From: Ideonella paludis
GTDB taxonomy: Bacteria > Pseudomonadota > Gammaproteobacteria > Burkholderiales > Burkholderiaceae_C
Length of the DNA: 64,000 nucleotides
Direction of reading: 5' to 3'
Assembly: GCF_018069865.1 (NCBI RefSeq)
Contig: NZ_JAGQDG010000008.1
Coordinates: 124,001 to 188,000 of the forward strand
Shown: piece after piece, positions 43,799-53,673 of the stretch
How positions within the stretch are numbered: the stretch's first letter is position 1
How the letters are laid out: the number at the start of each line of letters is the position of its first letter
Position numbers and translations under genes: made by a program
The notes under the pieces: model-generated
Told to the model about the DNA's origin: nothing
What the model saw: only the letters and a program-made list of their open reading frames with translations
Databases searched by the model: none

Positions 43799-45232
43799 AT
43801 GGCTGGCCCTTTGATTGAACGTATGTCGCGGGTCGATACCGCATGGCTGCGCATGGACACGCCTGCCAACCTCATGATGATTGTGGGGGTATGGCTGATT
43901 GAGCCGACCTTGTCGGTGGCCGAGGCGCGTTTGCGCGTGGCCGAGCGCCTGTTGCAGTACGACCGCTTCCGCCAAAAGGTGGTGGAAGACGCGGTGGGCG
44001 CGCAGTGGGTGGAAGACACCCACTTTGACATCGACGCTCATGTGGTGCCCGAGACCCTGGAGCCGCAGGCGGGCCAAACGCCCCTTGATGCGCTCAAAGA
44101 CAGAGTGGCCGACCTCTCAGCCACGCCGCTCGATATGCGCCGGCCACTGTGGCAGATTCACTTGGTCGAAAACTTGGAAGACGGCCGCAGCGCGCTGGTG
44201 GTGCGGGTGCACCACTGCATCGCCGATGGCATTGCGCTCATCTCGGTGATGCTCTCCATCACCGATGGCGGCAAAGCGCCGCCCAAACGCAAGCGCCGTC
44301 AGGCCGAGGGCGCTGAGCATGATTGGCTGGGCGAAGCCCTGATCAAGCCCATGGCCGACCTGACCATCAAGGCGATTGGCTTGACCGGGGGAGGTATGGC
44401 CAAGTCGGTCGAGCTGATGGCCAACCCCGGCCAGCCCATGGTCGAGGGCCTGGAGGCCGCGCGAGTGGGCATGCAGGTCATCAACGACGCTGCCTCACTG
44501 GCCTTGATGCCTGACGACTCGCCCACCAGCCTCAAAGGCAAGGCCACGCCGGGCAAGCGCGTGGCCTGGGGCGAGCCGCTGCCGCTGGACGAGGTCAAGG
44601 CGGTAGGCCAGGCCCTGGGCGCGTCCATCAATGATGTGCTGCTGACCTGTGTGGCGGGGGCCATTGGTGAGTACCTGCGCGCCCGCGGCGAAGACCCGTC
44701 GGGCAAAGAGATCCGCGCCATGGTGCCCGTCAACCTGCGCCCGCTAGAGCAGGCCTGGAAGCTGGGCAACCGCTTTGGCTTGGTGCCCTTGGTGCTGCCT
44801 GTGGGCATCGCCAACCCGGTCGCGCGCCTGGAAGCCGTGCGTGCCCGCATGAACGAGCTGAAGGGCGGCTACCAGCCCGTGCTGGCCTTTGCGCTGCTGG
44901 CCGTGGCCGGCTTGCTGATCAAGCCGGTGCAGGCCTCGCTGCTCAACATGTTTGCCAAGAAGGCGACAGCGGTGATGACCAATGTGCCGGGGCCCAAAGA
45001 CCCGCTGCAGTTCTGCGGCCGCACCGTCAAACAAGTGATGTTTTGGGTGCCGCAAAGCGGCGACATCGGCATGGGCGTGAGCATCCTCAGCTATGCCGGT
45101 GGCGTGCAGTTCGGCCTGATCACCGACGATGTGCTGTGCCCCGAGCCCGATGCCATCATCGCGGGCTTCAGGCCCGAGTTTGAGAAGCTGCTGACGCTGG
45201 CGCTGATGCTGCCCTGGGGCCGTTCAGAGTAA
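43799..45232 (+). CDS. Wax ester synthase / acyl-CoA:diacylglycerol acyltransferase
   Basis: WS/DGAT-family enzyme, 477 residues, that esterifies fatty alcohols or diacylglycerol with acyl-CoA. The catalytic motif HHxxxDG is present as VRVHHCIADGIALI near residue 140. The N-terminal RMSRVDTAWLRMDTPANLMMIVG and the C-terminal TNVPGPKDPLQFCGR and SYAGGVQFGLITD are family hallmarks. The gene indicates capacity for neutral-lipid storage. It overlaps the convergent GNAT gene by nine bases. Confidence 0.93.
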   Translation: MAGPLIERMSRVDTAWLRMDTPANLMMIVGVWLIEPTLSVAEARLRVAERLLQYDRFRQKVVEDAVGAQWVEDTHFDIDAHVVPETLEPQAGQTPLDALKDRVADLSATPLDMRRPLWQIHLVENLEDGRSALVVRVHHCIADGIALISVMLSITDGGKAPPKRKRRQAEGAEHDWLGEALIKPMADLTIKAIGLTGGGMAKSVELMANPGQPMVEGLEAARVGMQVINDAASLALMPDDSPTSLKGKATPGKRVAWGEPLPLDEVKAVGQALGASINDVLLTCVAGAIGEYLRARGEDPSGKEIRAMVPVNLRPLEQAWKLGNRFGLVPLVLPVGIANPVARLEAVRARMNELKGGYQPVLAFALLAVAGLLIKPVQASLLNMFAKKATAVMTNVPGPKDPLQFCGRTVKQVMFWVPQSGDIGMGVSILSYAGGVQFGLITDDVLCPEPDAIIAGFRPEFEKLLTLALMLPWGRSE

Positions 45233-45715
45233 CTCAACCTTGAGGTAGTGCGCGCCCGGAATCGGGTTGAAGTAATAGGGCGCCACTTCCTCAAAACCCA
45301 GCGAGGTATAGAGCTCGCGCGCGGCTTCCATGTCGTCGAGGGTGTCGAGCAGCATGCACGAGTAGCCCTCTTGGCTGGCCCGGTCGATCAGGGCTTGCGC
45401 CAAGGCGCGCCCCAAGCCAAAACGCCTGAAGGCTCGGCGCACAAACAAGCGCTTCATCTCGCAGGCATTGGCGTAGTCGGCATCCGGCAGCGGCCTGAAG
45501 GCACCGCAGCCGGCCAGCGCGCCATCTACCCAGGCCAAGAGCAAGCAGCCACCGGGCGCGGCATAGTCACCGGGCAGTGCGGCCAGCTCTTGCTCGAAGT
45601 TCTGGAAGCACAGGTCCACCGCCAAGCTGCTGGCGTACTCGCGAAAAATCTCTCGAACCGCCTCTATCGCCTCGGGCGACTCAGCGGGCAGCAGTTCTAT
45701 CTGGGGGGCGGGCAT
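45224..45715 (-). CDS. GNAT-family N-acetyltransferase
   Basis: Single-domain acetyl-CoA-dependent acyltransferase, 163 residues. Motif A is visible as MKRLFVRRAFRRFGLGRALAQALIDRA with the pyrophosphate loop RRFGLG, then CMLLDTLDDMEAARELYTSLGFEEV as motif B. The closest annotation type is a GNAT with an N-terminal SPEAIEAVREIFREYASSL. Substrate unknown. Confidence 0.87.
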   Translation of the reverse strand: MPAPQIELLPAESPEAIEAVREIFREYASSLAVDLCFQNFEQELAALPGDYAAPGGCLLLAWVDGALAGCGAFRPLPDADYANACEMKRLFVRRAFRRFGLGRALAQALIDRASQEGYSCMLLDTLDDMEAARELYTSLGFEEVAPYYFNPIPGAHYLKVELL

Positions 45716-47192: not shown

Positions 47193-47726
47193 TCAGCGCT
47201 TGAGTTGACGCTTCAGATCCAAGGCCCCGGCCTTGGCGGCGGCCAACTCCGCCTTTTTGTACACCCGCTCTGCTTTCTCACGCAGGGCCACCGCTTTGTC
47301 CAGGGCTTGCTGGAACTTCTCCACGGTATAGGTGTTCTCGGTGGCGATGTAGACGCTCTTGCGCTGTGAGGCTTGGCCAAAGCGCGGCAAGAGCACCGAC
47401 AAGCTGCAATCCCGCACCGTGCCGCCCTTGCGCAAGCGCACCACCGGACCGGAGATCCCTACGGGCAGGTCATTGCGTTTGTGTTTGCTGGGCGCACGCT
47501 GCAAGCGCGACGCGGGAGGGGTGTTGCGGATGCGCTTTTGAAGCTCATCCATGGCCAAGTTCAAAGCCTTTTCTGCACCACTGCCATCGGCGGTATGGTC
47601 TGAAAAGAGCTTGGTCCCTGCATAGCGCAACTGCCATCCATGGGTACTGCGGTGGTCAATGCGTTGAATGCCTTGCGGCACTTGAAAACGCTGGCCGCTG
47701 AAAATCACGACCTCTCTGAATCTCAT
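47193..47726 (-). CDS. AP2/ERF-like domain protein
   Basis: Predicted protein of 177 residues. The N-terminal half, PQGIQRIDHRSTHGWQLRYAG with KLFSD, resembles the bacterial AP2 (plant ERF-like) DNA-binding fold, where GI.RID...THGW is the first strand pair. The second half, GISGPVVRLRKGGTVRDCSLSVLLPRFG, has a similar beta arrangement, followed by a Lys/Ala-rich coiled tail (VALREKAERVYKKAELAAAKAG). Family assignment is from memory of bacterial AP2 proteins and is moderate. It lies 90 bases beyond the PhzF gene and is probably a separate unit. Confidence 0.6.
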   Translation of the reverse strand: MRFREVVIFSGQRFQVPQGIQRIDHRSTHGWQLRYAGTKLFSDHTADGSGAEKALNLAMDELQKRIRNTPPASRLQRAPSKHKRNDLPVGISGPVVRLRKGGTVRDCSLSVLLPRFGQASQRKSVYIATENTYTVEKFQQALDKAVALREKAERVYKKAELAAAKAGALDLKRQLKR

Positions 47727-47816: not shown

Positions 47817-48659
47817 CTAGTGGTTTCCCAGAATGACGGTGCCGCTGATGCAGGCTGCAATGTGCCCGCCGATCCAAATGTCTTGCACGTCAGCTTGCAC
47901 ATAGACCCGGCCCTGTCGCCCCATGCATGTGCCTTGCGATACCCGGTATTGCGCCGGCGCTTGGCCGCTGCCGATCAGCCATTGCGCCAAGCTCGCATTC
48001 AGGCTGCCTGTCACCGGGTCTTCGGGCACGCCCAATTCCGGCACAAAGGCCCGAACCTCAAACTGGCAGTCAGACCCCTCTGGGTAAGCGCCGACAACGC
48101 CCAAGTTGAGCCCCTGCAGTGCTGCGAAATTGGGTTTGAGTGCCAACACCGCCTGGGCCGAGGCCAGCTTGGCCGCCAGCCAGCCCGGGCCGTTGTCCAC
48201 CCATTCCAGGGCCAGCAGATCGGCATCTGCCACACCCAGCACGGTACACACTTGCGGGCGCAGGCTCGCGTCTGCCGGGCCGCTGCGCCGCAGGGGCGGG
48301 GCCGCAAAGGCCAGGCGCGTGCCATCGCGCTTGACGCGCACCAAGCCCACCCCGCACTGCTGCACCACTTGGCCCGGCTTCTTGGCCAAGCCGCCGGCCG
48401 CCAACCAGGCATAGCAACTGCCCAGGGTGGGGTGGCCGGCAAAAGGCAGCTCGCCGCCGGGGGTAAAGATGCGCACCCGGTAGTCCGCTTGCTCGTCGGT
48501 GGGCTGCAGCAAGAAGGTGGTTTCGCTGAGGTTGGTCCAGCGCGCAAAGGCGGCCATCTCGGCCTCGCTCAGGCCGTCGGCGTCATGCACAACCGCCAAG
48601 GCATTGCCCAGGGTCGGGGTGGAGGTGAAGACATCCAACTGGCTGAAGCGGCGCAACAT
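47817..48659 (-). CDS. PhzF-family isomerase/epimerase
   Basis: Diaminopimelate-epimerase-fold protein of the PhzF family, 280 residues. QLDVFTSTPTLGNALAVVHDADGL at the N-terminus, the catalytic Glu in TNLSETTFLL near residue 46, TPGGELPFAGHPTLGSCYAWL, and in the C-terminal lobe FVPELGVPEDPVTGSLNASLAQWL are all family hallmarks. Substrate unknown. The true start is ATG 48659; the frame is open further up inside the aminotransferase gene. Last gene of a five-gene unit, 14 bases after the aminotransferase. Confidence 0.9.
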   Translation of the reverse strand: MLRRFSQLDVFTSTPTLGNALAVVHDADGLSEAEMAAFARWTNLSETTFLLQPTDEQADYRVRIFTPGGELPFAGHPTLGSCYAWLAAGGLAKKPGQVVQQCGVGLVRVKRDGTRLAFAAPPLRRSGPADASLRPQVCTVLGVADADLLALEWVDNGPGWLAAKLASAQAVLALKPNFAALQGLNLGVVGAYPEGSDCQFEVRAFVPELGVPEDPVTGSLNASLAQWLIGSGQAPAQYRVSQGTCMGRQGRVYVQADVQDIWIGGHIAACISGTVILGNH

Positions 48660-48673
48660 CTGGGGCCTCCGGT

Positions 48674-49894
48674 TCAGGGCGTGGTGGGGCTGGGGGTTTC
48701 GTTCAAGTGGCGCTTGAGCACCCCGCCCAGCAGCGCCACAGCGGCCTCGATCTCGGCCGGGGGCAAGGTCACAAACGACAGGCGCAGGGTGCGGGTGTCG
48801 GCATGGTCGGCATAGAAGGCCTCGCCCGGCACATAGGCCACACCGGCCTTCACCGCCTCGGGCAGCAAATGGTAGGCATGGCAGCCGGCGGGCAGGCGGA
48901 TCCAGAAGAACATGCCGCCCTCGGGTGCCACCCATTCGCTGCCTTCAGGCAGATGGACCTTCAGCGCGGCGGCCATGGCGTCGCGCTGGGCCTTGTAGCG
49001 TGCGCGCACGGTGGGCACATGCTGGTCCAAGAAGCCATTGCGGATGACCTCATAGACCACGCGCTGGTTGAAGCCCGGTGTGTGCAAATCGGCCGCTTGC
49101 TTGGCTTGCAGCAGCTTGGGGCACAGCGCGGGCGGTGCTACCACAAAGCCCAGGCGCAAGCCCGGTGCCAGCACCTTGGAGAAAGAGCCCAGGTAGATGG
49201 TGCCTTCGGGCCAGCGTGAGGCCAGCGAGGCGGGCGGCGGCTGGTCAAACCACAGGTCGCCATAAGGGTTGTCTTCCAGCAGCGGCACATTGGCAGCCTG
49301 GGCGGCAGCCACCACGGCCTGGCGGCGAGCCTCGGGCATCACCCGGCTGCTGGGGTTTTGGAAATTGGGCAGCACATACAAAAAGCGGGTGCCGGGCGCC
49401 ACGCGGGGCAGGGCTTCAATGGCCTCAGGGCGCGGGCCTTGGGCGTCGCTGTCCACGCTCACAAAATGCGGCTCGTAAGGGGCGAAGGCTTGCAGCGCCC
49501 CGAGATAGGTGGGGGCCTCCACGGCCACGGGGCTGCTTCCGTCAATCAGCAGCTTGCCCACCAAATCCAGGCCTTGTTGCGAGCCGGTGGTGATCAGCAC
49601 CTGGTTGGCGTCCACCGTTTGGCCTTGGCCGCGCAGCATGGCGGCCACCCACTCGCGCAGCGGGCCAAAGCCCTCGCTGGCGGCATATTGCAGGGCCTCG
49701 CGCGGGGTGTCGGTGAGCACCTTGGCGGTGGCTTCACGCATGGCTTCGATGGGAAAGGTGTCGGGCGAGGGCAGGCCGCCGGCCAGCGAGCGGATGCCCG
49801 GCTGCTCGGTCACCTTCAGGATCTCGCGGATGATGGACGGGTTCATGCGCGCCGCACGGTGCGCTTGGGTCCACAGCGGGGTGCTTGTCTTCAT
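48674..49894 (-). CDS. PLP-dependent aminotransferase, class I/II (2-aminoadipate transaminase-like)
   Basis: Fold-type I aminotransferase, 406 residues. The family pattern includes AARMNPSIIREILKVTEQPGIRSLAGGLPSPDTFP, the PLP Asn region PNFQNPSSRVM, the Tyr/Asp in EDNPYGDLW and the Schiff-base Lys in YLGSFSKVLAPGLRLGFV. This looks like the LysN / aromatic 2-aminoadipate group of broad-range enzymes. It overlaps the racemase gene by four bases and precedes the PhzF gene, so it probably acts on an amino acid handled by those enzymes. Confidence 0.9.
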   Translation of the reverse strand: MKTSTPLWTQAHRAARMNPSIIREILKVTEQPGIRSLAGGLPSPDTFPIEAMREATAKVLTDTPREALQYAASEGFGPLREWVAAMLRGQGQTVDANQVLITTGSQQGLDLVGKLLIDGSSPVAVEAPTYLGALQAFAPYEPHFVSVDSDAQGPRPEAIEALPRVAPGTRFLYVLPNFQNPSSRVMPEARRQAVVAAAQAANVPLLEDNPYGDLWFDQPPPASLASRWPEGTIYLGSFSKVLAPGLRLGFVVAPPALCPKLLQAKQAADLHTPGFNQRVVYEVIRNGFLDQHVPTVRARYKAQRDAMAAALKVHLPEGSEWVAPEGGMFFWIRLPAGCHAYHLLPEAVKAGVAYVPGEAFYADHADTRTLRLSFVTLPPAEIEAAVALLGGVLKRHLNETPSPTTP

Positions 49895-50598
49895 GGGGTG
49901 TCTCCAGTAATCCAGTCCACCGCAGCCTGGGCGTGTAAGGCGGTGGTGTCAAACAAGGGCACAGGCCAAGCGCCTGCTGCCGGGTCAATGAGCAAGGAAA
50001 TCTCGGTGCAGGCCAGCACGACCGCGTCACAGCCTCGGTCTGCCAACTGGCTGATGACCTGACGATAGCGCTGACGCGAGGCGTCCACCAAGCGGCCTTG
50101 GCAAAGTTCTTCAAAAATAATGCGGTGGACCTCGTCGCGGTCTGCCGCGTCGGGCACCTCGCAGCGCAGCTCAAAGTGCTGCTCCAGGTGCTGGCGCAAG
50201 AAGGCGTCTTCCATGGTGAAGCGCGTGCCCAGCAGCCCCACCCGTCGCCGTCCGGCCGCGTGCAAGGCCCGGCCTGTGGCATCGCCAATGTGCAGCAGTG
50301 GCAGGTGGCTGTACTGCTGGATGATCGGGGCCACCTTGTGCATGGTGTTGGTGGCGATCAGCAAGCCCTGGGCTCCGGCGCGCTCCAGCCCTGCCGCAGC
50401 CTGTCCCAGCAATTTGCCGGCATCCTCCCAGCGGGCTTCGCGCTGAAGCTCGGCCACCTCAGCAAAGTTGACGCTGTGCAGCTGCAGCGGCGCACTGGCC
50501 AGCCCGCCTTCGCGTTGCGCCACGCCTTGGTTGATCAAGCGGTAGTAGACGCAGGTGGACTCCCAGCTCATGCCGCCCAGCACGCCCAGCCGCTTCAT
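49891..50598 (-). CDS. Aspartate/glutamate racemase-family protein, YgeA-like
   Basis: PLP-independent amino-acid racemase, 235 residues. MKRLGVLGGMSWESTCVYYRLIN is the family N-terminus. The two active-site positions are Thr in IATNTMHKV and Cys in VLACTEISLL. The Thr-for-Cys change matches E. coli YgeA, reported as a racemase acting mainly from L to D. It is flanked by exporter and aminotransferase genes with four-base overlaps on both sides. Confidence 0.9.
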   Translation of the reverse strand: MKRLGVLGGMSWESTCVYYRLINQGVAQREGGLASAPLQLHSVNFAEVAELQREARWEDAGKLLGQAAAGLERAGAQGLLIATNTMHKVAPIIQQYSHLPLLHIGDATGRALHAAGRRRVGLLGTRFTMEDAFLRQHLEQHFELRCEVPDAADRDEVHRIIFEELCQGRLVDASRQRYRQVISQLADRGCDAVVLACTEISLLIDPAAGAWPVPLFDTTALHAQAAVDWITGDTP

Positions 50599-51515
50599 GA
50601 GTCTTTCCTTGCAGCGGAGGGCGCACCCACCGGCATGCGCTTGCCCACCAGCACCACGCCAATGATGGCCAGCGAGAACGCCACCGTGCTGGCCTGCAGC
50701 GGCTCACCGAGCACCGGCACGGCCAGGAGCAGGGCCGCAAACGGCTGGATCAATTGCACCTGGCTGACGCGCAGCGTGCCGCCCAAGGCCAAGCCCCGGT
50801 ACCAGGCAAAAAAGCCCAGCCACATCGAGAACACGGTGACATAGGCAAAGCCGCCCCAGGCCGCGGCGGACGCAGGGGCGGTGGGCCAAGTCCACAGCGC
50901 GGCGGGCAGCGTCAGCGGCAAGCTCAGCACCAGCACCCAGCAGATCACATGCTCGGCCGGCCAGGTGGCGGAGAGCTTGGCGCCTGCCACATAGCCGATG
51001 GACGCACTCAAGATGGCCAGCAGCAGCCAGCCATCGGCCTGCACCATCTGGCCACCGCCCTCGTGCAGTGCAAAAGCCATCACCAGCCCGCAGCCCAGCA
51101 CCGCGCAGGCCCAAAAGCCCAGGCTGGCGCGCTGGCCTAAAGCCCACGCCGCCACAGCGGCCGTGCCCAGCGGCAAGATGCCCGTGACCACGGCGGCGTG
51201 CATGGAGGGCACCTCACGCAAGGCCAAGGCCAAGAACAGCGGAAAGCCCAGCACCGTGCCCAGGGCGCTGATGCCAAACAGCGGCCACTCGGACGGCTGC
51301 GGTCGGCGCGCGTGGGTGAGCCACAGATAGGCCAAGCTCAACAGCCCCGCACCCGCCGCCCGGCCTGCCGTGACGAAGAGCGGCGGCAGTTGCGGGGCCT
51401 CCACGGGGCCGACGGCCAGCCGAGTCATGGGCAGGGTCAATGCAAAGATCAGCACGCCCAAGGTGCCCAGCCACAGGCCGCGGGCTTGATGCTCAGTCGG
51501 GTGCCCGTCCTTCAT
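50595..51515 (-). CDS. EamA/DMT-family transporter (RhaT/YdcZ-like exporter)
   Basis: Ten-helix drug/metabolite transporter with two EamA repeats, 306 residues. The first repeat begins LGTLGVLIFALTLPMTRLAV, the second after the central loop near MVQADGWLLLAILSASIGYVAGAKL, with FAYVTVFSMWLGFFAWYRGLALGGTLRVSQVQLIQPFAALLLAVPVLGEPL typical of EamA repeat 2. The frame is open far upstream, but ATG 51515 overlaps the LysE stop (ATGA) and matches the family start. Likely an amino-acid or metabolite exporter. Confidence 0.9.
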   Translation of the reverse strand: MKDGHPTEHQARGLWLGTLGVLIFALTLPMTRLAVGPVEAPQLPPLFVTAGRAAGAGLLSLAYLWLTHARRPQPSEWPLFGISALGTVLGFPLFLALALREVPSMHAAVVTGILPLGTAAVAAWALGQRASLGFWACAVLGCGLVMAFALHEGGGQMVQADGWLLLAILSASIGYVAGAKLSATWPAEHVICWVLVLSLPLTLPAALWTWPTAPASAAAWGGFAYVTVFSMWLGFFAWYRGLALGGTLRVSQVQLIQPFAALLLAVPVLGEPLQASTVAFSLAIIGVVLVGKRMPVGAPSAARKDS

Positions 51516-52120
51516 CGCAGCACCATCCACACCGCAGTCGCCGCCAGTACCAGGGCCATGCATCGGTTGAACCACATCAGCCGCTGTCCGTGTTGCAGCC
51601 AAGGCCGCAGCGCCGCGCCCAGCAGCGCATAGCTGAAATTGCTGGCAAAGGCATAGGCCGCCATCAATGGCAGCACCATGGCCAGGCGCTCGGCCACCGG
51701 CCCCGGCGTGACCCAGCCCTGCACCACCAGCAGCGCGGCCATCCAGGCCTTGATGTTCACGAACTGCAACGCCACGCCTTGGGCAAAGCCCACGTTCAGG
51801 CGATCGGCCTGCACCTCGCTCAAGGTGGCGGTGTGCCCCAGCTTCCAGGCCATCCACAACAGATAGGCCACGCCGGCCCCCGTCAGCCCCGTGCGCCAGG
51901 CGGGGGCGGCCTGCAAGAGCGTGCCCACGCCCGCACTGCAGGCCAGCACCAGCATCACCCAGCCCAGCGGCACCGCCATGCAAAAGGGCAGCGCAGCTTT
52001 CAGGCCCCGGTTGGCGGCCAAGGCGGCCGACAGGGTGGTGTTGGGCCCCGGGGTGAAGGCAATGGCCGTGGCCAGCGCCAAAAGCGCCAGCAGGTCGGAC
52101 AAAGGCATGAAGGGGAACAT
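51512..52120 (-). CDS. LysE-family amino acid exporter
   Basis: Six-helix LysE/RhtB translocator, 202 residues. FTPGPNTTLSAALAANRGLKAALPFCMAVPLG is the family signature after the first helix, and VGFAQGVALQFVNIKAWMAALLVVQGWV the second. ATG 52120 is chosen, with ATG 52108 and an upstream frame as alternatives; no strong ribosome site is visible. First gene of the unit, divergent from the MocR regulator with the operator between them. Confidence 0.88.
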   Translation of the reverse strand: MFPFMPLSDLLALLALATAIAFTPGPNTTLSAALAANRGLKAALPFCMAVPLGWVMLVLACSAGVGTLLQAAPAWRTGLTGAGVAYLLWMAWKLGHTATLSEVQADRLNVGFAQGVALQFVNIKAWMAALLVVQGWVTPGPVAERLAMVLPLMAAYAFASNFSYALLGAALRPWLQHGQRLMWFNRCMALVLAATAVWMVLR

Positions 52121-52144
52121 CTGGACAGTGTAGGCAGCGTGCCG

Positions 52145-52192
52145 GTACAGTGGCAATACAGATTGACCGCGCAAATGCGGCATCTGTATTGC
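52145..52192. promoter_or_regulatory. Operator for the MocR-type regulator
   Basis: A perfect 11-base inverted repeat GCAATACAGAT (52153-52163) / ATCTGTATTGC (52182-52192) lies in the gap between divergent lysE and mocR genes. An additional direct repeat, GTACAG at 52145 and ATACAG at 52156, is spaced 11 bases, one helical turn. MocR proteins commonly bind such direct plus inverted ATACAG-type half sites. It overlaps the expected promoters of both units. Confidence 0.7.
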
Positions 52193-52221
52193 TCACCCCA
52201 TCAGCACAGAACGGAGGCCTC

Positions 52222-53673
52222 ATGGCCGCGCGCGAGATCGACAGCCCGCTTTGGGTCGAGCCCCTGGAGGCCGCTCCGGCCCTGTCACGCAGCAGCGCCG
52301 CCACCCTGACCGAGCAGTTGGCCCAGCGCTTCACTCAGCGCATTCGCCAGCGCTTGATGGCGCCGGGCACGCGCCTGCCCTCGGTGCGTGAGTGCGCCAA
52401 ACGCCATGGCGTGAGCCCGCACACCGTGGTGGCCGCCTATGACCAACTGCTGGCTCAGGGGCTGATCGAGGCGCGCCTGAAGCGCGGCTTTTTTGTGCGT
52501 GAACTGGCCGCGCCGGTGGCTGAAGGCCGCCATCACACCGCGGTGACCCTGGCCGCGCCGTTGGATGCCACCGCGCTGATCCGCGGCATGTTCCATGGCA
52601 TGGGCGGCAAGCCCGCGCCGGGCTTGGGCACCTTGCCGCCCGATTGGCTGGACCTGCCTCTGCTCAACAGTGCCTTACGCAAAGTGCTGGCCCAGGGCGA
52701 CCCGGACATCGTCTTGCAATACGGCCACCCCTCGGGCGACACCCGGCTGCGCGAGGCCCTGGCCCAGCGCCTGCAAGACTTTGGCGTGCGCGCCTCGCCG
52801 CAGCAGATCGTCACCGCCACCGGCGCCACGCATGCGCTGGACATCATCTCGCGCACCTTGCTGCGCCCGGGTGACGCGGTGCTGGTGGACGAGCCCGCCT
52901 GGGCGGTGGAATACGCGCGCCTGACTCAACTGGGTATTCGCCTGCTGCCCGTGCCACGCGGGGCTGAAGGGCCGGACCTGGACGTGATGGCCACCCTGGC
53001 CCGCGAACACCAGCCGCGCTTTTATGTGACGGTGCCAGTGCTGCACAACCCCACCGGCAACTCGCTGACGCCACGTGCCGCGCACCAGATCTTGACCCTG
53101 GCGCAACAGCATGATTTCTACATCGTTGAAGACGACACCTATGCCCATCTGGCCCCCGCCCACCTGCCGCGCATGGCCGCGCTGGATGGCCTGCAGCGCA
53201 CGCTCTATGTGTCGGGCTTCTCCAAGATCTTGACCCCCAGTTGGCGCGTCGGCTTTGTGGCGGCCCCGCTGCACCTGGTGGAGCGCTTGGTGGATGTGAA
53301 GCTGCTGTCCACCCTCACCACCCCGGCCGTGCTGGAGCAAGCCATTGCCCTGTGCCTGACCCAAGGCAGCCTGCGCCGCCATGCCGAGCGCGTGACCGCC
53401 CGCCTTGACGCCGCCCGCCAGCGCACTGTGCGGCTGGCGCAGGCCCATGGCTGCGACTTTGTCACCCCGCCCCAAGGCCTGTTCGGCTGGCTCGACACCC
53501 ACTGCGATACCGACGCCCTGGCTCAGCTCATGGTGGACGACGGCTGGCTGCTGGCACCGGGCCATCTCTTCATGTCCAGCCGCCAGCCCAGCACGCTGAT
53601 GCGCATCAACTTCGCGACCTGCCAAGACGCCAGCTTTTGGCGGGCTTTTGACGCGGCGAGGCAGCGGCTGTAG
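52222..53673 (+). CDS. MocR-type transcriptional regulator (GntR HTH fused to aminotransferase)
   Basis: Regulator of 483 residues. N-terminal GntR winged helix (about residues 30-100: LAQRFTQRIRQRLMAPGTRLPSVRECAKRHGVSPHTVVAAYDQL) and C-terminal fold-type I aminotransferase-like domain. PLP-site residues are kept: the Asn loop VLHNPTGNSLTP, EDDTYAHL, and Lys in YVSGFSKILTPSWRVGFV. ATG 52222 has a GGAGG five bases upstream. It is divergent from the five-gene amino-acid unit and is the probable regulator of that unit, sensing PLP or an amino-acid adduct. Confidence 0.93.
   Translation: MAAREIDSPLWVEPLEAAPALSRSSAATLTEQLAQRFTQRIRQRLMAPGTRLPSVRECAKRHGVSPHTVVAAYDQLLAQGLIEARLKRGFFVRELAAPVAEGRHHTAVTLAAPLDATALIRGMFHGMGGKPAPGLGTLPPDWLDLPLLNSALRKVLAQGDPDIVLQYGHPSGDTRLREALAQRLQDFGVRASPQQIVTATGATHALDIISRTLLRPGDAVLVDEPAWAVEYARLTQLGIRLLPVPRGAEGPDLDVMATLAREHQPRFYVTVPVLHNPTGNSLTPRAAHQILTLAQQHDFYIVEDDTYAHLAPAHLPRMAALDGLQRTLYVSGFSKILTPSWRVGFVAAPLHLVERLVDVKLLSTLTTPAVLEQAIALCLTQGSLRRHAERVTARLDAARQRTVRLAQAHGCDFVTPPQGLFGWLDTHCDTDALAQLMVDDGWLLAPGHLFMSSRQPSTLMRINFATCQDASFWRAFDAARQRL

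Follow-up and report, generated by a model that had tools for sequence, protein, structure and literature searches.

A MocR-linked aminotransferase–PhzF cluster of Ideonella paludis as a possible amino-acid overflow or detoxification operon

What is the function of an operon in which two predicted amino-acid exporters, a racemase, a pyridoxal 5'-phosphate (PLP) aminotransferase, and a PhzF-family isomerase lie opposite a MocR-type regulator? Such a locus occupies positions 47,817 to 53,673 of the window, that is, the 64,000-nucleotide (nt) stretch of Ideonella paludis DNA analyzed here (assembly GCF_018069865.1, contig NZ_JAGQDG010000008.1, forward-strand positions 124,001 to 188,000), and all positions below refer to this window. 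An earlier note, made from the sequence alone, had proposed a system that either makes and exports an unusual amino acid, possibly a D-amino acid, or controls the overflow of a specific one. Overflow is the better of these two options: we read the cluster as a single-locus, MocR-switched operon for amino-acid overflow or detoxification, and we give this reading a probability of about one half.

All six genes named in that note are present according to the open reading frame (ORF) list and Pfam, five on the minus strand facing the MocR-type gene on the plus strand (Table 1). The ORF coordinates also bear out the three 4-base overlaps, namely LysE/EamA (51512–51515), EamA/racemase (50595–50598), and racemase/aminotransferase (49891–49894), as well as the 14-base gap at the aminotransferase–PhzF joint (48660–48673).

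To see which of these genes stay together, we compared the best 80 of 129 aminotransferase relatives from one genome scan (loci numbered with the prefix L), examining up to 8 kb on each side. These loci come from Ideonella, Roseateles, Mitsuaria, Rhizobacter, Rubrivivax, Rhodoferax, Hydrogenophaga, Acidovorax-type organisms, and similar or unplaced Burkholderiales. Because the aminotransferase was the query, its presence in 80 of 80 holds by construction; moreover, one family dominates the set, and the loci are not independent events. Out of a set of 60 genomes, 40 (that of I. paludis included) have an aminotransferase match at E ≤ 1e-60. Within 8 kb, PhzF was found in 74 loci, MocR in 69, EamA in 66, LysE in 53, and the racemase in 7, along with GST-like (47), threonine dehydratase (40), glyoxalase-like (29), and AlaX-like (23) genes. 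In close-spaced runs with the aminotransferase (gaps below 250 bp), the counts were 74 for PhzF, 57 for EamA, 45 for LysE, 41 for GST, 28 for the dehydratase, 26 for the glyoxalase-like gene, 8 for AlaX, and 6 for the racemase. MocR is immediately divergent in 61 of the 80 loci, so that the expected conservation of a MocR-linked gene order in relatives is borne out. The regulator was not found in 11 loci, five of which start at a contig end (L102, L111, L115, L120, and L155); in the other six (L103, L106, L131, L138, L139, and L156), no MocR match was present despite at least 2.3 kb of upstream sequence. LysE and EamA are both missing in 11 loci, all of which keep MocR, the aminotransferase, and PhzF. 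On a tree of the aminotransferase (84 rows), the EamA label needs at least three changes and the PhzF label at least four. Collectively, these neighborhoods indicate that the core of the cluster is MocR, the aminotransferase, and PhzF, with exporters as usual companions.

Among ten distant aminotransferase relatives (L068–L077, 37–44% identity), none has PhzF, EamA, or a racemase nearby, and the cluster is therefore read as a Burkholderiales trait; L074 has a LysE match, albeit a weak one (30%), as well as a second match of the aminotransferase type. Of 200 genomes sampled from the order, 17, including that of I. paludis, match the aminotransferase at E ≤ 1e-100. In 15 stretches taken from this sample, MocR was matched in seven and PhzF in three, two of them less than 400 bp away. 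As separate observations on copy number, tandem second PhzF copies occur among L108–L143, mainly in Rhodoferax/Curvibacter and Paracidovorax/Acidovorax loci, and other loci of the same range have two LysE-type genes in the cluster.

The earlier note had treated the five operon genes as a set, a view that did not survive the co-occurrence check set beforehand: all five are together in only 4 of the 80 loci, and the order seen in the window occurs in three (L078, L080, and L103), one of them a near sibling. The racemase in particular behaves as an optional member. A D-amino-acid producing or scavenging system, for example for D-homoserine, would draw on this gene, which overlaps its neighbors translationally, and on its product, which keeps Thr83 and Cys197, which we take from the YgeA structure work to be the catalytic pair of that enzyme, in an end-to-end alignment with Escherichia coli YgeA (EcL-DER; PDB 5hqt/5ell) that scores 262.8 bits against 5hqt. 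Among seven racemase relatives, T83 is kept in six and C197 in all seven. The protein exceeds the cut-off of TIGR00035 (177.4 vs 93.1 bits); it differs from YgeA in falling under the PRK10200 equivalog cut-off (291.4 vs 417 bits) and is therefore filed as a relative rather than as the same enzyme. Passages in two papers describe E. coli YgeA as a slow, broad racemase for which homoserine is a good substrate, and report that its loss impairs growth, which Met, Thr, or Ile rescues (PMC8142540, PMC12838360).

The distribution of the racemase points the other way. It is matched at E ≤ 1e-30 in 13 of the 60 genomes, that of I. paludis included; in the 12 others, it adjoins the aminotransferase in five and lies elsewhere, or occurs without an aminotransferase, in seven. 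Strong matches (E ≤ 1e-60) occur in 10 other genomes and adjoin the aminotransferase in five of them. The racemase is marked on 8 of the 84 rows of the aminotransferase tree, a distribution that takes at least five gains or losses, and the operator and core genes are the same in loci that have no racemase. A racemase and a dehydratase co-occur in one row of 84 (L149), a rarity that may reflect descent rather than replacement. Since the racemase is optional, we reject a D-amino-acid pathway as the core of the cluster, and the suggestion that such a system is its basis now looks very unlikely.

The second line of evidence for a MocR-switched operon lies in the intergenic region. The perfect 11-base dyad described earlier is present, its arms (52153–52163 and 52182–52192) being 11 nt long, 100% complementary, and 18 nt apart. 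Judged from its conservation, this dyad is two boxes of a predicted three-box operator, the third of which had been missed. We compared 70 MocR–operon gaps (the window and 69 loci), with the placement in each picked by best score. TGTA in box 2 and TGT in box 3 are invariant in all 70, and boxes 1 and 2 are separated by 20–21 nt in 68; the extracted sequences of the other two, L124 and L143, are cut at box 1. At this spacing, a score of at least 21 was reached in 68 of 70 real gaps vs 1 of 700 dinucleotide shuffles. A loose three-box pattern matched 65 of 81 loci (the window and the 80 relatives), always in the MocR–operon gap, with no match outside that gap in 1,239,781 bases scanned. Thus, the site shows the multi-box arrangement of direct and inverted repeats holding TGT that would be expected of a MocR-subfamily operator. 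In the main text of Suvorova and Rodionov, two direct boxes and one inverted box form the commonest MocR motif class (PMC5320631).

The loose pattern has one match in the I. paludis genome (0 for a reversed-pattern control), and a wider regulon in this genome was rejected because the pattern used finds one operator site. A stricter pattern matched 6 of 299 genomes of the phylum, I. paludis included, three of them in the family and one beside a relative of the cluster in another family (G091). In related families, the clusters of L160 and L161 come with a comparable site (scores 24), and those of L162 (23), L163 (20), and L167 (21) with one that is weaker or rearranged; L170 scored 17. The stricter pattern was also matched at two sites outside the order (G351:C52:15297-15338 and G489:C218:5009-5053).

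Box 3 is followed by a putative −10 element. A TANANT hexamer starts 10 nt (38 loci) or 11 nt (30 loci) past this box in 68 of the 70 gaps, and boxes 2 and 3 thereby fall at the −35 and spacer position, which suits a repressor; activation is less likely. An ATG lies 6 nt (15 loci), 7 nt (28), or 8 nt (1) past the hexamer in 44 of these 68 loci, as does the ATG of the window at 52118–52120, 6 nt past the −10 element; random positions in the same gaps gave an ATG at that distance in 945 of 14,000 tries. The first gene is an exporter in all 44 loci with the spaced ATG, which is absent in 11 of 11 aminotransferase-first loci and in 13 exporter-first loci. In 31 of the 44, the spaced ATG is the in-frame start of the exporter. 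In the other 13 (L117, L123, L128, L136, L140, L142, L147, L149, L151, L152, L153, L154, and L079), it opens a mini-ORF of 8–26 codons whose stop overlaps the in-frame start of the exporter as ATGA in every case, and 10 of these mini-ORFs have Gln at residue 4 (M-x-x-Q). Among 29 further loci from relatives, 23 have the operator pattern, three of which are exact duplicates of the 80-locus set. The hexamer is present in 17 of the 20 non-duplicates and is followed by an ATG at 6–8 nt in 8 of these 17; each such ATG opens an exporter-length frame, and a mini-ORF was found in 0 of 8. Based on this geometry, we predict that these transcripts start leaderless at the spaced ATG.

The same geometry affects the gene starts. 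Those set by the ORF caller, 52183 for LysE and 52150 for MocR, fall in or across the dyad, and homology and promoter geometry favor 52120 and 52222, respectively; the start at 52222 is preferred for MocR on account of homology and because 52150 falls inside the operator.

The core proteins are well conserved at their active sites. The alignment of conserved residues skipped 11 loci and covers 72 aminotransferase, 67 PhzF, and 62 MocR rows rather than 80, 74, and 69. On the 507-residue MocR ORF from 52150, Pfam places a GntR domain at residues 53–116 (51 bits) and an Aminotran_1_2 domain at residues 177–495 (109.9 bits), both above cut-off, which is the GntR plus fold-type-I aminotransferase architecture of the MocR subfamily. 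K335, a putative PLP lysine (FSKIL), is kept in all 60 rows that have a letter there. The aminotransferase aligns over nearly its full length with its closest solved chains, 1x0m, PH0207 of Pyrococcus (3aov), and the Thermus 2-aminoadipate transaminase LysN (2egy), at 317 to 313 bits, which places it with LysN, PH0207, and human KAT II. The likeness is about 40% at best as judged by eye, and the substrate is not predictable from it. K240, R23, and R371 are kept in all 72 rows, and R23 corresponds to Arg23 of LysN, the residue that reads the side-chain carboxylate of the substrate. Weaker profile matches of the aminotransferase include MppQ and GntC/VioD-type biosynthetic enzymes, all far below cut-offs.

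PhzF scores 192.1 bits against TIGR00654 (cut-off 76.2). Its residues E46, H76, D214, and S219, kept in 67 of 67 rows, align with E45, H74, D208, and S213 of the phenazine enzyme, given as catalytic in a passage of PMC5524880, so that all four catalytic residues are matched. The closest solved chain is yeast YHI9 (1ym5), not phenazine PhzF, and phenazine biosynthesis was rejected because, by Pfam, none of the other five proteins at the locus is a phenazine enzyme. For the LysE-family exporter, the best NCBIfam profile is the cysteine/O-acetylserine transporter EamB (58.6 bits, cut-off 193), followed by LeuE (41.5, cut-off 165), RhtB/C (35.9, cut-off 184), and LysE proper (26.6, cut-off 214). 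A specific assignment to any of these was rejected, as every score lies under its cut-off. Collectively, the gene content, conserved linkage, operator, and conserved catalytic residues are what the DNA lets us read directly.

The genes that join the cluster in relatives provide the hint at its role. Profile matches there include a PRK06110 threonine dehydratase (524 bits vs a cut-off of 317) and DHCW cupin, PF13468 glyoxalase-like, GST, GNAT, and DUF2917 proteins. Additionally, YjgF/RidA-type and tRNA_SAD/AlaX-type genes join the cluster, and a RidA-like gene is the neighbor of the aminotransferase in L067, L162, L163, L164, L166, and L167, six loci from other families. The presence of RidA in MocR regulons and damage to PLP enzymes are both mentioned by Suvorova and Rodionov (PMC5320631). 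The activity of YgeA on homoserine and the growth defect on its loss, cited above, also count in favor of overflow or detoxification. The shared theme is amino-acid disposal, through efflux, transamination, dehydration, racemization, tRNA editing, and removal of reactive products, and overflow or detoxification is therefore preferred over a D-amino-acid pathway. From this mix of extras we would guess, weakly, that the substrate is a small hydroxy amino acid of the homoserine/threonine/serine class.

Several observations weigh against overflow or detoxification. The absence of both LysE and EamA from 11 of 80 loci means that export is not the defining step, and both exporters score far under the cut-offs of specific NCBIfam families. 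The RidA-like, TDH, AlaX, VOC, and GST labels are patchy on the aminotransferase tree. In the I. paludis genome, the best match to the PRK06110 dehydratase has 33% identity and lies in a 579-codon frame, and AlaX has one match only, in a 916-codon frame; as this genome has no close dehydratase, nor an AlaX beyond that match, the hint of a hydroxy amino acid comes from relatives only. Moreover, what reads as a four-gene ABC uptake set of the branched-chain type is inserted between the aminotransferase and PhzF in L081, L082, L085, and L122, which would suit catabolism better than overflow. Of the amino-acid system with export proposed at the outset, the amino-acid chemistry stands, as does export in the sense of a common component, and the requirement for two exporters does not.

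These points lend some weight to a pathway that breaks down or builds a particular amino-acid derivative, with the aminotransferase and PhzF as its two enzymes and the exporters serving only to relieve by-products. Such a pathway would explain why the two enzymes are the most constant pair (74 of 80), persist in the 11 loci that lack exporters, and have uptake genes inserted beside them in four loci, and it would fit the MppQ and GntC/VioD-type matches; however, these matches are far under their cut-offs, the swapped-in extras are mostly of detoxification or stress types, and no constant pathway-like set extends beyond the two enzymes. We regard this alternative as somewhat unlikely.

For the preferred overflow or detoxification operon, we infer the ligand, the sign of regulation, the direction of transport, the reactions, and the substrate from the gene content, and propose the following sequence of events. 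The PLP-carrying MocR would sense an amino acid as a PLP adduct. Bound to the three-box operator, where boxes 2 and 3 overlie the operon promoter at its −35 element and spacer, it would keep the promoter off, or less likely activate it, until the amino acid builds up. Efflux of the amino acid through the LysE and EamA proteins would follow; the LysN-type aminotransferase would turn the remainder into the corresponding 2-oxo acid, and PhzF would isomerize the substrate or product of that step. In the lineage of the window, the YgeA-type racemase may interconvert L and D forms; relatives appear to slot other disposal or damage-control enzymes into this place, such as threonine dehydratase, RidA-like, glyoxalase-like, GST-like, acetyltransferase, and AlaX-like proteins.

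A more specific proposal, which we consider improbable as a whole, is a leaderless, MocR-switched safety valve on an unrecognized aminotransferase–PhzF reaction pair, with the operator in the core promoter and transcription from the exporter ATG. On release of MocR, 70S ribosomes would initiate straight on the exporter. The leaderless start would have shifted in some relatives, certain Hydrogenophaga and Ramlibacter among them, to the ATGA-coupled mini-ORF, possibly a loading or sensing peptide, and the racemase variant found in the window would widen the reach of the valve to D-homoserine-like isomers.

How does the cluster relate to known systems? As described in the text of Suvorova and Rodionov, PdxQ regulons contain DMT or LysE transporters, aminotransferases, a RimI acetyltransferase, a GloA-family lyase, and COG384, which is PhzF, and the conclusions of the same paper predict a PhzF–DMT link whose function is left open (PMC5320631). 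These regulons, together with unnamed MocR regulons of that work, share with the window the MocR regulator, a DMT/LysE exporter, an aminotransferase, PhzF, and the operator class, and their acetyltransferase and glyoxalase-family members are paralleled by GNAT and glyoxalase-like genes in relatives of the window. Much of the gene list would therefore be accounted for by a PdxQ-type regulon for vitamin B6/PLP homeostasis (Suvorova and Rodionov 2016), with LysE, EamA, the aminotransferase, and PhzF all found in the window. However, no PLP-metabolism gene occurs among the six proteins at the locus or among the recurrent families in the runs, where pdxO, pdxO2, and pdxH do not appear, with no search having been aimed at these genes, and we judge this explanation rather unlikely. 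Unlike the window, the regulons in PMC5320631 have no racemase mentioned in the main text in the PhzF/DMT context. In the openly licensed literature, we found no paper beyond PMC5320631 on MocR with PhzF or EamA. Collectively, the comparison suggests that the cluster is a better resolved variant of the MocR regulons predicted in 2016.

Some features of the host and the surroundings are recorded here. The host genome is 4.8 Mb, and the nearest relative of the aminotransferase among named genomes is that of Ideonella sp. MAG2 (98% identity). Compared with a sibling locus (L038, on the same contig as L078), the aminotransferase gene has 91.6% DNA identity (98% for the protein) and the other five cluster genes 79.6–86.8%; either stronger constraint or local recombination would explain the higher value. 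Downstream of PhzF lies a 177-residue ORF (47193–47726, minus strand) that has no Pfam match and 98% protein identity to the sibling genome. A GNAT acetyltransferase gene follows at 45224–45715 (minus strand); 27 of the 80 loci have a relative of it downstream of the cluster.

Table 1. Genes and predicted regulatory elements of the cluster (window positions)
Feature	Positions	Strand	Remarks
MocR-subfamily regulator	52222..53673	+	GntR DNA-binding domain and aminotransferase-like PLP domain; divergent from operon
Operator box 1 (predicted), inverted half	52182..52192	-	Dyad arm; CAATACAG on operon strand
Operator box 2 (predicted)	52153..52163	-	Dyad arm; core TCTGTATTG at 52154-52162
Operator box 3 (predicted), direct repeat of box 2 at 11-bp pitch	52143..52151	-	ACTGTACCG
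Predicted -10 element TACACT	52127..52132	-	10 nt after box 3
LysE-family exporter	51512..52120	-	Pfam LysE 45.8 bits; start set by promoter geometry
EamA-family (DMT) exporter	50595..51515	-	Pfam EamA 95.1 bits, two stretches
YgeA-like amino-acid racemase, optional member	49891..50598	-	Pfam Asp_Glu_race 145.7 bits
LysN/KAT II-type PLP aminotransferase, core enzyme	48674..49894	-	Pfam Aminotran_1_2 98.9 bits
PhzF-family isomerase, core enzyme	47817..48659	-	Pfam PhzC-PhzF 197.5 bits

MocR regulons in which PhzF goes together with amino-acid exporters were predicted in 2016, and their function is still unassigned, as are most MocR ligands. The cluster described here offers a sharp test case, with a single predicted operator, a compact promoter, and a constant pair of enzymes with intact active sites. 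Natural variants in which single enzymes are present or absent are part of this test case, and the predicted leaderless starts and coupled mini-ORFs form a side finding that is directly testable. Should the substrate turn out to be an amino acid of industrial use, such as homoserine or threonine, both the exporters and the regulator would be useful biosensor parts.

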